A stretch of DNA of 64,000 bases from contig NZ_JAMBNX010000004.1 in assembly GCF_023715325.1 (NCBI RefSeq), positions 248,001 through 312,000 on the forward strand, given 5' to 3'. Under the pieces are notes generated by a model, which was not told the DNA's origin, searched no databases, and was given only the letters and a program-made list of their open reading frames with translations. The translations under genes were made by a program, and so were the position numbers. This DNA comes from Agromyces mediolanus. GTDB lineage: Bacteria; Actinomycetota; Actinomycetes; Actinomycetales; Microbacteriaceae. Numbering within the stretch: position 1 is the stretch's first letter; every line of letters begins with the position of its first letter. Positions 41,685 through 58,035 of the stretch are shown here, one piece after another.

Positions 41685-41705
41685 GCCGCAGGGATCACCT
41701 GACCG

Positions 41706-41756
41706 AACCCGGCGGTGACCGAGGCGCTGCACTCCGCCCCGTCACCGCCGGGTTCG
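41706..41756 (+). terminator. Hairpin between fliC and fliD
   Basis: GAACCCGGCGGTGAC (41706-41720) pairs perfectly with GTCACCGCCGGGTTC (41742-41756) across a 21-base loop. It would stop most fliC transcripts and let some continue into fliD, matching the needed excess of flagellin over cap protein. Confidence 0.8.
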
Positions 41757-53147: not shown

Positions 53148-54308
53148 GTGCTCCGCTCGATGTTCTCCGGGATCTCCGGACTCCGCGCCCACCAGACCAT
53201 GCTCGACGTCACCGGCAACAACATCGCCAACGTCAACACCACCGGGTTCAAGGGCTCGGCGACCCAGTTCCAGGACACGCTGTCGCAGCTCATCCAGGGC
53301 GGCGGCGCTCCCGGTGCCGCCATCGGCGGCACGAACCCCGCCCAGATCGGCCTCGGCGTGCAGATCGCCGGCATCAGCACGAACTTCACGCAGGGCTCGG
53401 CGCAGGCCACCGGTCGCGCGAGCGACCTGATGATCTCGGGCGACGGCTTCTTCGTCGTCAACGCGGGCGGCGAGACGCTGTACACCCGGGCGGGCGCGTT
53501 CGACTTCGACGCGCAGGGCCGGCTCGTGTCGCCGAACGGCGGCTTCGTGCAGGGCTGGATGGCGCAGAACGGCGTCGTGAACCAGGGCGGCGGGCTGCAG
53601 AACATCACGCTCCCCCGCGGCGTCGTCGCCCCCGCCGTGCCGACCACGTCGGTGCGGTTCACGGGCAACCTGCCGCTGGATGCCGCGGCCGGAACCGAGA
53701 TCGTCCGCGACATCGACGTCTACGACGCCTCCGGCAACGCGACGAGCGTCACGCTCTCGTTCACGCGCAGCGCGACCGGCTGGGACGTCGCCTCGGGCGG
53801 CACCAACCTCGGCGCCATGACCTTCGTCGACGGACAGCCGACCGGCACCACCTCGGTCACGGTCGCCGGCGCGACCATCGACCTCGCGGGCGTCACCGGC
53901 TTCGCCGAGCTCAGCACGCTGAAGGTCGCCGGGCAGGACGGCCGCCCCGCCGGCACGCTCGACGCCTACTCGATCGGCCCGGACGGCACGATCACGGGCA
54001 CCTTCTCGAACGGCGCGACGCAGGCCGTCGGGCGCATCGCGCTCGCCACCTTCGTCAACCCGGGCGGCCTCGAGAAGGCGGGCGACTCCTCGTACCGGGC
54101 GACCGCGAACTCGGGCGCCGTCGAGCTCGGCGCCGCGGGCGACCCCGGCTACGGGAAGCTCGCGAGCGGCTACCTCGAGATGTCGAACGTCGACCTCTCG
54201 CAGGAGTTCACGAACCTGATCATCGCGCAGCGCGGCTTCCAGGCGAACGCCCGGATCATCACCACGAGCGACGAGGTGCTGCAGGAGCTGACGAACCTGA
54301 AGCGGTAG
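53148..54308 (+). CDS. flgE: Flagellar hook protein FlgE
   Basis: A 386-residue hook subunit. The N-terminal region MLRSMFSGISGLRAHQTMLDVTGNNIANVNTTGFKGS is the rod/hook signature. The middle includes LMISGDGFFVVNAGGETLYTRAGAFDFDAQGRLVSPNG, and the C-terminus SGYLEMSNVDLSQEFTNLIIAQRGFQANARIITTSDEVLQEL is typical of FlgE/FlgG. The GTG start has AAAGGA upstream. It is the last gene of the flgB operon. Confidence 0.95.
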   Translation: MLRSMFSGISGLRAHQTMLDVTGNNIANVNTTGFKGSATQFQDTLSQLIQGGGAPGAAIGGTNPAQIGLGVQIAGISTNFTQGSAQATGRASDLMISGDGFFVVNAGGETLYTRAGAFDFDAQGRLVSPNGGFVQGWMAQNGVVNQGGGLQNITLPRGVVAPAVPTTSVRFTGNLPLDAAAGTEIVRDIDVYDASGNATSVTLSFTRSATGWDVASGGTNLGAMTFVDGQPTGTTSVTVAGATIDLAGVTGFAELSTLKVAGQDGRPAGTLDAYSIGPDGTITGTFSNGATQAVGRIALATFVNPGGLEKAGDSSYRATANSGAVELGAAGDPGYGKLASGYLEMSNVDLSQEFTNLIIAQRGFQANARIITTSDEVLQELTNLKR

Positions 54309-54350: not shown

Positions 54351-54484
54351 CACCGCCTGCGCCACTTCGTGCTCCACGCGCCACCTCTACTGGCGCAACG
54401 ACACCGAACTGGCGCAGACGGGCCGCGCAAGCCATCCCGCCCGCTCCGACACAGCGCCTGCGCGCCACTTCCGCGCCCACGCGC
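54351..54484. repeat. 200-bp-spaced direct repeat, first copy (contains family C element 1)
   Basis: Bases 54351-54484 recur at 54551-54684 with a single difference (A at 54453, C at 54653). Inside each, CTGCGCCACTTCG pairs with CGAACTGGCGCAG and encloses GCGCCA/TGGCGC, a double hairpin (about 54357-54415) related to the elements at 55771-55962. Confidence 0.85.
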
Positions 54485-54550
54485 ACTCCCGCACCGCCAC
54501 ACCACTCCCGCGCCCCCGCCCCACTCCCGCGCGCTCCGCGCAGCTCTCGA

Positions 54551-54684
54551 CACCGCCTGCGCCACTTCGTGCTCCACGCGCCACCTCTACTGGCGCAACG
54601 ACACCGAACTGGCGCAGACGGGCCGCGCAAGCCATCCCGCCCGCTCCGACACCGCGCCTGCGCGCCACTTCCGCGCCCACGCGC
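54551..54684. repeat. 200-bp-spaced direct repeat, second copy (contains family C element 2)
   Basis: Nearly identical to 54351-54484, so the duplication is recent or kept uniform by gene conversion. The duplicated block contains the same double hairpin. The stretch between the copies is GC-rich with CCACTCCCGCGC-type repeats and no gene. Confidence 0.85.
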
Positions 54685-54750
54685 CACTTCCTGCGACGCA
54701 CCCGCGGCGCTGCCCGTCCACCACACGCACCGCCCCGGCACGCGCTTCCC

Positions 54751-54756
54751 TAGGCT
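54751..54756 (+). promoter_or_regulatory. -10 box TAGGCT of the ACR3-like gene (leaderless)
   Basis: TAGGCT is followed by six bases and then the GTG at 54763. Same hexamer and spacing as for the GntR gene at 25496. Confidence 0.65.
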
Positions 54757-54762
54757 GGAGCG

Positions 54763-55752
54763 GTGCAGCGGACGATCGAGTGGTGGGACCGGCACCAGCT
54801 CGCACTCGCCATCGCCGCCATCCTCGTGGGCGCCTTGCTCGGACTCGCGGCCCCCGCGGTCGCGCCGGTGCTGTCCTCGGCTACCAATCCGGTGCTCGCG
54901 CTGCTGCTGTTCGCGACGTTCCTGGGCGTGCCGATCGACGGGATCGGGCGATCGCTCCGGGACGCCCGCTTCCTCGGCACCGTGCTGCTCGTGAACTTCG
55001 TGGCGGTGCCGGTGCTCGTCTTCGTCCTCTCGCGCTTCGTGGCCGACGACCGGGGCCTGCTGCTCGGGGTGCTGCTCGTGCTGCTCACGCCCTGCGTCGA
55101 CTACGTCATCGTGTTCACCGGCCTCGCCGGCGGCGCGCGTGATCGGCTGCTCGCCGCGACCCCGCTGCTGATGATGCTGCAGCTCGTGCTGCTGCCCGGG
55201 TACCTCTGGCTGTTCGCCGGTGCGGATGCCCTCGCCCTGCTGGATCCCGGGCCGTTCCTCGAGGCGTTCCTCGTGATCATCGTCATGCCGCTCATCGCCG
55301 CCGCCCTCGTGCAGGCGCTCGCCCGGCGGCACCGCGTCGCCCGCGGGTTCGAGCGCGGCCTGGCCGGCGCGATGACGCCGCTGCTGATGCTGACGCTCGC
55401 CGTCGTGGTGGGTTCGCAGATCGCGGCGGTCGGCGCGGAGGCCGTCGCGCTCGCACGACTCGTGCCGATCTACCTCGGTTTCGCGGCGGTCATGGTCGGT
55501 GTCGGCATCCTGGCCGGACGGATGGCCCGGCTCGACGTCCCGCGCATCCGCGCCGTCGTGTTCAGCGGGGTCACCCGGAACTCGCTCGTCGTGCTCCCCC
55601 TCGCCCTCGCCCTGCCCGCGAGCCTGGGGATCGCCCCGCTCGCGGTCGTGACGCAGACGCTCGTCGAGCTGGTGTGCCTGCTCGTGCTGGTGCGGCTCGT
55701 GCCGATGCTCGTGCGTGCGCGCGCGTCGGGCGCTGGGGGTCCGGGGCCGTGA
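54763..55752 (+). CDS. ACR3/bile-acid:Na+ symporter-family permease (arsenic-resistance type)
   Basis: A 329-residue, ten-helix transporter. LLLFATFLGVPIDGIG and the loop TPCVDYVIVFTGLAGGARDRLLAATPLLMMLQ carry the Pro-Cys pair and surrounding pattern of ACR3 arsenite carriers; SGVTRNSLVVLPLALALP is the second conserved helix. Canonical ACR3 loops read PCTAMVFVW, so the substrate may differ from arsenite. No arsR or arsC gene is nearby. It interrupts the flagellar cluster and has its own leaderless promoter. Confidence 0.78.
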   Translation: MQRTIEWWDRHQLALAIAAILVGALLGLAAPAVAPVLSSATNPVLALLLFATFLGVPIDGIGRSLRDARFLGTVLLVNFVAVPVLVFVLSRFVADDRGLLLGVLLVLLTPCVDYVIVFTGLAGGARDRLLAATPLLMMLQLVLLPGYLWLFAGADALALLDPGPFLEAFLVIIVMPLIAAALVQALARRHRVARGFERGLAGAMTPLLMLTLAVVVGSQIAAVGAEAVALARLVPIYLGFAAVMVGVGILAGRMARLDVPRIRAVVFSGVTRNSLVVLPLALALPASLGIAPLAVVTQTLVELVCLLVLVRLVPMLVRARASGAGGPGP

Positions 55753-55770
55753 CGGCCGCGCGTGCGGCCC

Positions 55771-55840
55771 CCGTCCGCGCCACTTCGGACGCCACGCGCC
55801 AGCAGAAATGGCGCAACGATGCCGAAAGGGCGCGGACGCA
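55771..55840. repeat. Family C palindromic element, copy 3
   Basis: 70 bases from CCGTCCGCGCCACTTCGG to GCGCGGACGCA. The outer arms are inverted repeats, and the middle holds GCGCCAGCAGAAATGGCGC, an inner hairpin. It differs from copy 4 at only five positions. Confidence 0.85.
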
Positions 55841-55892
55841 CAGAAGTGGCGCTCGTGCGGGGCAGCCTGACGGGAACCCGACGGGCTCGACC

Positions 55893-55962
55893 CCGTCCGC
55901 GCCACTTCGGCCGCCACGCGCCAGCAGAAGTGGCGCAGCGATGCCGAAGTGGCGCGGACGCA
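55893..55962. repeat. Family C palindromic element, copy 4
   Basis: 70 bases, outer arms CCGTCCGCGCCACTTCGG and CCGAAGTGGCGCGGACG (almost perfect inverted repeat), inner hairpin GCGCCAGCAGAAGTGGCGC. It follows copy 3 by 52 bases in the gap before the convergent cupin gene. Confidence 0.87.
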
Positions 55963-56041: not shown

Positions 56042-56392
56042 TCAGTCGTCGATCGTGATGTACGTCTTCCGCAGCGCCTCGTGCACGTGCCAGACGCCTT
56101 CCCAGCCGCTCGGCATCACGAGCGTGTCGCCCGCACCGATGGTGGCCCGCTGCCCGCCCGCCGTCTCCACGGTGACGGAGCCCGAGAGGATCTGGCAGAT
56201 CTCGGTGTAGCCGTCACGGCGGGCCGTGAAGCTGCCGGGCGAGCACTCCCAGAAGCCGACCTCGGTGCCGCCGCCGCTCCAGAGCGGGCTCGTCGCCTCG
56301 ACGACGTCCGGCGTGGTGGCGGTCGGCTTCGGGGCCGGCTCGCCGAGGTCGGCGGCGAGCGGCTGGGACTGGATGACGAACTCGACGGTCAT
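56042..56392 (-). CDS. Cupin_3 (DUF861) protein
   Basis: A 116-residue single cupin. GSFTARRDGYTEICQILSGSVTVET and GAGDTLVMPSGWEGVWHVHEALRKTYITI match the DUF861/EutQ-like cupin pattern, with candidate metal ligands Glu in YTEI and His in VHE. Such cupins are often encoded beside amine-oxidising flavoenzymes, as here. The ATG at 56392 has AGAGGAA upstream. It follows the oxidoreductase gene on the same strand by 64 bases. Confidence 0.87.
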   Translation of the reverse strand: MTVEFVIQSQPLAADLGEPAPKPTATTPDVVEATSPLWSGGGTEVGFWECSPGSFTARRDGYTEICQILSGSVTVETAGGQRATIGAGDTLVMPSGWEGVWHVHEALRKTYITIDD

Positions 56393-57830: not shown

Positions 57831-57975
57831 CGTTTCCTCCCTGCGACGTTCCGTCCGACGACGGCCGTCCGTTCGATCATGCGGGACGCCCCGGCTGGGG
57901 CGCCACCGTCCATCTGCTGGCTTTCCGGACTCCGTCCGGACGATGTGTCGTGCGCGCCCGGTCGGGCGCCCCCTC

Positions 57976-58035
57976 TGCCCCTCCGTGCTCTGCCCCTCCG
58001 TGCTCTGCCCCTCCGTGCTCTGCCCCTTCGTGCTC
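57976..58035. repeat. 15-bp minisatellite, four units
   Basis: TGCCCCTCCGTGCTC repeats four times without gaps (57976, 57991, 58006, 58021), with one change in the last unit. It lies in the 530-base gap before flbD, which otherwise holds two family B elements and a flagellar promoter and no gene. Confidence 0.85.

Follow-up and report, generated by a model that had tools for sequence, protein, structure and literature searches.

What is the palindromic repeat that flanks a transporter gene at this locus, and why does it carry the same six-letter word four times? Within the 64,000-nucleotide stretch of Agromyces DNA analyzed here (the window), four copies lie in two pairs, one on each side of the gene (Table 1).

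A four-hexamer palindrome and its copies

By aligning the copies, we found that the common unit is a 57-bp palindrome, GCGCCA-N13-GCGCCA-N7-TGGCGC-N13-TGGCGC, in which the hexamers start at offsets 0, 19, 32 and 51. Three of the window units matched this pattern at all 24 hexamer positions and the unit starting at 55777 had one mismatch; among 60 windows simulated with a second-order Markov model, the closest chance match had four. Folded with RNA parameters and 6-nt flanks, units 1 to 4 gave predicted energies of -35.9, -35.9, -41.7 and -55.1 kcal/mol, respectively, and all of them formed the nested outer and inner GCGCCA/TGGCGC stems that a first-pass annotation of this DNA had described. 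The near identity that it reported for the two downstream copies also held, with 5 differing positions between the 70-nt stretches 55771-55840 and 55893-55962. A search against Rfam 15 returned no family, either at gathering score or at E-values up to 1.

Table 1. Repeat units, half sites, duplicated block and neighbouring genes (positions in the window)
Feature	Position	Strand	Remarks
FlgE-type hook protein gene	53148..54308	+	upstream of units 1 and 2; 50 bp from gene end to unit 1
134-bp block, first copy	54351..54484		holds unit 1
Unit 1	54359..54415		four hexamers intact
Half site GCGCCACTT	54462..54470	+	outside the units; 103 bp past the GCGCCACTT opening unit 1
134-bp block, second copy	54551..54684		holds unit 2
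Unit 2	54559..54615		same sequence as unit 1
Half site GCGCCACTT	54662..54670	+	outside the units
Half site GCGCCACTT	54681..54689	+	19 bp past the half site at 54662..54670
SBF-family (PF01758) transporter gene	54763..55752	+	between both unit pairs; 24 bp from gene end to unit 3
Unit 3	55777..55833		single mismatch, in the last hexamer
Half site	55844..55852	-	between units 3 and 4
Unit 4	55899..55955		no hexamer mismatch; most stable predicted hairpin among the window units
Cupin gene	56042..56392	-	convergent with the transporter gene; 86 bp from unit 4 to gene end

Two further repeats were seen in the window. A scan for hairpins with arms of at least 18 pairs, up to 3 mismatches and loops up to 16 nt reported a single one, at 41704-41756 (20-nt arms, 2 mismatches), which stands outside the four-hexamer family; and a short tandem repeat at about 57930-58000 shows up as the peptide PSVLC, repeated within an ORF that is probably spurious.

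The first-pass annotation had proposed a genome-wide copy count as one check of its repeat family, and the family is real. The window genome (G000; 4.04 Mb in 89 contigs) holds 46 units at up to 2 mismatches, 38 with none and 8 with one mismatch in 24 positions, and raising the limit to 3 mismatches added one place only, overlapping another unit. The reversed pattern, used as a control, was found 0 times at 2 mismatches and once per strand at 3. When the spacing was allowed to vary, sets of four exact hexamers had the 19/7/19 geometry in all 38 cases within the fetched loci of this genome, which had been picked by similarity to a unit. Half sites GCGCCACTT were found outside units elsewhere in the genome too, and a few clusters contain GCGCCA runs with a period of about 19 bp. 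At L025:1295-1431, eight same-orientation GCGCCA follow each other with a 19-bp period (one step being 17), the last two forming the left arm of a unit. We also observed that L024, at the end of contig C3, and L030, at the start of contig C33, lie side by side in A. mediolanus and A. soli; in G000 the assembly breaks inside a unit array between these two contigs.

History of the transporter locus

The gene between the two pairs had been called ACR3-like. Its product belongs to the SBF family and scored 37.4 bits against the ACR3 equivalog model, for which the cut-off is 282.8 bits, so that the label stands as a distant resemblance only. Units 3 and 4 lie between this gene and the cupin gene, whose start codon we picked inside a longer ORF. 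Among named species, the transporter has its closest relatives in A. mediolanus and A. soli, and the gene order flgE, transporter, cupin, DAO is the same in these two species and in G000. flgE was seen near an SBF transporter in these three genomes and was not found in 8 other Microbacteriaceae loci (12-13 kb fetched).

A. mediolanus has no unit at either junction, the anchors being 10 nt apart between flgE and the transporter gene and 9 nt apart between the transporter and cupin genes. In A. soli a single unit, with conserved sequence on its flanks, stands upstream of the transporter gene in place of the window's two, and the downstream junction has no unit. Since A. mediolanus and A. soli are somewhat nearer to each other than to G000 at this locus, the common ancestor probably already carried the upstream unit, with a later loss in A. 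mediolanus and a duplication, as a 134-bp block, in G000; this history is drawn from one locus. The comparison of the three genomes indicates that the transporter gene was already in place while units around it appeared, disappeared and multiplied, and the transposition of the transporter segment suggested in the first-pass annotation does not fit the gene order shared with A. mediolanus, without any unit, and A. soli, with one.

The 134-nt direct repeat was confirmed with exactly one mismatch (54453, A versus C); its identity ends at both borders, and 66 bp separate the two copies. Units were multiplied locally in tandem in this genome: among the 23 neighbouring pairs less than 500 bp apart, 17, in 9 clusters, are homologous beyond the unit, a pattern that the 134-bp block fits and that supports the local duplication proposed earlier. 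For units 3 and 4, detectable homology is limited to the unit itself. The 134-bp duplication most likely arose recently and locally, from an older unit that had been present once. That it is an assembly artefact seems highly unlikely to us: the assembly is a draft of 89 contigs and broke inside another unit array, at the end of C3 and the start of C33, but the two copies differ at one base and are kept apart by the 66-bp spacer, and tandem homology beyond the unit recurs in 8 other clusters of G000. Finally, although the transporter gene is flanked by two unit pairs, a move of this segment as a composite element is extremely improbable, since A. mediolanus and A. soli share the gene order without flanking pairs, the pairs are unlike each other (units 1 and 4 with their flanks differ at 17 of 70 positions), and the SBF gene lies alone between them, with no transposase between the copies.

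Hexamer conservation, arm pairing and distribution

Related species differ in where they carry a unit. Of the 22 G000 clusters, 11 have a unit at the matching intergenic position in A. soli (decayed in two cases) and 2 in A. mediolanus, where some places are N runs and one anchor is missing. Two A. soli units are without a G000 counterpart, L217:3411 and L213:4269 (gap missing in G000; oriented coordinates). At orthologous copies the hexamers are conserved: comparing nine intact A. soli copies at syntenic loci, each with the nearest G000 copy, we found 2 of 216 hexamer positions changed versus 76 of 297 other positions (Fisher p 1e-17), two decaying syntenic copies (one with a 1-nt deletion, the other with 3 mismatches) having been left out of this count. 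At one and the same site, therefore, the hexamers are maintained and the sequence around them changes. Likewise, the mean pairwise difference among 42 distinct G000 units was 0.016 in the hexamers and 0.379 elsewhere. At L024 and L026, reversing the unit improves its alignment with the A. soli orthologue (9 instead of 15 and 8 instead of 12 differences of 33), as would be expected if the palindrome had flipped at its site.

Then, we compared the pairing of the N13 arms with arm shuffles within each genome. First, pairing was 0.53 versus 0.59 for shuffles in G000 and 0.70 versus 0.65 (maximum 0.71) in G041. Second, four other genomes equalled their shuffles within 0.01, and no genome tested exceeded its own shuffle range, so that these data do not demonstrate selection on arm pairing in individual copies. 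An explanation by the hairpin alone was dropped in favour of hexamer recognition when this within-genome test failed. Third, between genomes the arms differ yet remain largely complementary, with 84.3% of cells paired versus 75.4%. Two-sided changes numbered 228 against 112 +/- 11 in shuffles, a comparison inflated by the relatedness of copies, and at most 101 in slid controls; two other cross-genome measures did not stand out (12 versus 12.0 pairs with a two-sided change, 47 versus 43.6 further pair types). Sharing of flanks between outer and inner hexamers, as extended sites, was weak (permutation p ~0.003) and absent in G000.

The family is patchily distributed, most Microbacteriaceae being without it. 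At up to 2 mismatches, the strict pattern occurs in 10 of 60 Agromyces genomes, with 46 units in G000, 11 in A. soli and 2 in A. mediolanus; at 1 mismatch it occurs in 10 of 398 Microbacteriaceae genomes (5 of 85 genera) and in 1 of 394 class members, G000 itself. These counts favour intact hexamers by design, as do the 60 units from other genomes and the cross-genome arm alignment that were drawn from them. A covariance model trained on 75 units derived from the strict pattern extended the range to 22 of 60 Agromyces genomes at E 1e-4, some single matches being doubtful, and to 30 of 398 Microbacteriaceae genomes in 14 of 85 genera at E 1e-5, five of these genera (g23, g29, g36, g69 and g77) having one or two strand matches each that may be chance hairpins. 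At E 1e-6 it matched 5 of 394 class genomes, of which one, G699, is outside Microbacteriaceae; its two copies have a common arm start and are located between convergent genes, at 26/10 and 48/34 nt from where these are predicted to end. In the Microbacteriaceae and class searches 14 candidates were scored per genome, so copy numbers are floors. A 211-bp query gave no match in phages and plasmids, and the exact 57-bp pattern was found 0 times in IMG/VR viral contigs.

Spacing varies from genome to genome, mostly with equal arms. Of 46 loci from the model search, 5 with more than 3 hexamer mismatches were set aside; among the remaining 41, 36 were symmetric (17 with 20/7/20, 9 with 19/7/19, 9 with 19/8/19 and 1 with 19/10/19) and 5 had unequal arms. 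A scan free of any assumed hexamer, run on all fetched loci (1.82 Mb, picked for having matches), found repeated quads only for GCGCCA and its overlapping frames, with 83 distinct cases at 19/7/19, 21 at 20/7/20 and 4 at 19/8/19. Single hairpins with GCGCCC (L271) or CCGCCA (L274) at all four positions and 19/8/19 spacing were seen once each, and could have arisen by chance, given that the model favours words of this kind.

A second palindromic family, with arms close to GCAAGACGTCACTATTnGTGGGTG, was noticed in A. mediolanus and A. soli, partly at the same intergenic places (L191, with its core motif at 2356/2396 and 2712/2752, L210, L205 and L217). Neither the window nor the G000 loci that were fetched yielded its core motif GACGTCAnTATT.

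Candidate functions and known repeat systems

In the other carriers examined, units are placed near 3' gene ends and between convergent genes. According to home-made gene calls from GC content by codon position, which are rough, and ignoring ORFs that swallow a unit, the 60 units outside G000 comprise 27 between convergent, 24 between tandem and 5 between divergent genes, with 4 at an edge (undetermined); 27 versus 5 gives a binomial p of 1e-4, and 37 of the 60 have a predicted gene end no more than 63 bp away. For the 22 G000 clusters, judged by similarly rough gene calls in A. mediolanus, the counts were 6, 12 and 4, so that the bias is much weaker there. With a cruder first gene call, 23 of 108 units fell inside predicted ORFs, most of which we took as spurious. 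Among nearby ORF starts, no mobile or recogniser gene was recognised by eye beside the units.

The near absence of change in the hexamers, against the drift of the letters that separate them, suggests that a putative component of the cell reads them. Pairing alone ties outer hexamer to outer and inner to inner, and does not impose one word four times; we infer that recognition by one factor would explain this. Our preferred reading, to which we give a probability of roughly 0.55, is that the units are REP-like palindromes in which the four rigidly spaced GCGCCA/TGGCGC hexamers are recognition sites of one putative trans-acting factor. Its sites would keep a rigid and mostly symmetric spacing, 19/7/19 in G000 and 20/7/20 or 19/8/19 in other genomes, and the factor would act on the palindrome as DNA, on its cruciform or single-stranded hairpin form, or on a hairpin in RNA close to where genes end. 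On the simplest reading, new genome-specific families would start from near-perfect hairpins, of which later only the hexamers and their spacing would be needed. No candidate factor was found in this analysis.

Three other readings bear on the same data. It is doubtful that the hexamers are duplex-DNA sites of a nucleoid-organising or regulatory oligomer, with hairpin formation irrelevant. The one-orientation GCGCCA arrays of about 19-bp period (eight at L025, two of them belonging to a unit, and four at L026) and the poorly paired N13 arms of G000 agree with such sites; however, slippage could also yield 19-bp arrays, and duplex binding requires neither that arms be largely complementary in other genomes nor that arm length mostly change on both sides together (36 of 41 loci).

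We consider it unlikely that the units are purely selfish, non-autonomous elements, in which the hexamers would be needed only for movement by a putative transposase and their conservation would reflect turnover of movable copies. The patchy distribution, the genome-specific arm sequences and the many presence/absence differences between G000, A. soli and A. mediolanus across the 22 clusters all agree with such elements. Nevertheless, a search limited to the Y1 family found no transposase in 16 carriers, and orthologous copies keep their hexamers intact. In nine clusters aligned to A. mediolanus and A. soli, inspection by eye showed no target-site duplication, though the junctions were ragged.

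Less plausible still are bidirectional transcription terminators or stabilisers of mRNA 3' ends in which the sequence word is incidental. The predicted hairpins are stable, and the 60 units outside G000 are often just after stop codons and between convergent genes, as are the G699 copies. However, no T-rich terminator tract follows a stem in the window between 54250 and 56450, A. mediolanus is without a unit (at up to 3 mismatches) at 20 of the 22 clusters, and pairing alone needs no hexamer repeated four times around a poorly paired middle, as seen in G000.

Beyond recognition by one factor, we tentatively consider that the units could represent a new class of palindromic element in Microbacteriaceae and, sparsely, in other Actinobacteria, in which a single putative non-RAYT factor would read the hexamer four times in a fixed hairpin geometry, the arms being replaced wholesale between lineages while hexamers and symmetry persist. 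If true, this pairing of element and recogniser would be a new dissemination machinery, or a system acting on the chromosome or on RNA at gene ends. In these units the letters that are kept stand apart, to an unusual degree, from those that are free to change, and the number of units varies between related species. With these features, affinity capture or comparative genomics could lead to the recogniser, and one could ask if repeats of this kind benefit the host or only themselves.

No published description of a four-hexamer family was found in a search limited to open-licence literature and judged partly by title; as far as that search reached, the family is undescribed. BIMEs are clusters of palindromic units with spacers. 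The units described here are likewise clustered and separated by spacers, but many of their clusters in G000 are tandem duplications of the unit plus its flank.

The element is a REP-like family of extragenic palindromes in the broad sense: a short palindrome at many sites, with convergent or unidirectional intergenic placement near 3' ends, which resembles the placement described for REPs in PMC3733652. GTAG REPs and REPINs are, according to PMC3733652, also dispersed extragenic palindromes, often near 3' ends, species-specific and often grouped. In contrast to them, GTAG occurs within 8 nt in 1 of 206 flanks, and the unit here is one palindrome with arms of 25-26 bp and four identical hexamers. 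A RAYT-type Y1 transposase (Y1_Tnp, PF01797) was found in 0 of 16 carrier genomes, the control search finding Y1_Tnp in 5 of 14 named genomes. The identification as GTAG REP or REPIN was therefore rejected on both the tag (1/206) and RAYT (0/16).

CGTC REPs, too, are palindromic, share the convergent or unidirectional intergenic placement and have no known dedicated transposase (PMC3733652). Their stem is 8-9 bp and their loop 4-5 (PMC3733652), whereas the arms here are 25-26 and the loop is 7-8 in nearly all units. A CGTC tag, hinted at by the GCGTCC flank consensus in G000, was rejected as not general, and the stem and loop differ from those of CGTC REPs as well: CGTC was found at -5 to -2 in 12 of 77 G000 flanks and elsewhere in 1/43, 2/22, 0/11, 1/22, 0/10 and 1/20, the variants CCTC and TGTC being left out of these counts. 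The word Actinobacteria is absent from the text of PMC3733652. By description, the untagged REP-like families of M. tuberculosis, D. radiodurans and others named there are, like the four-hexamer units, repeated stem-loops without a terminal tag (PMC3733652).
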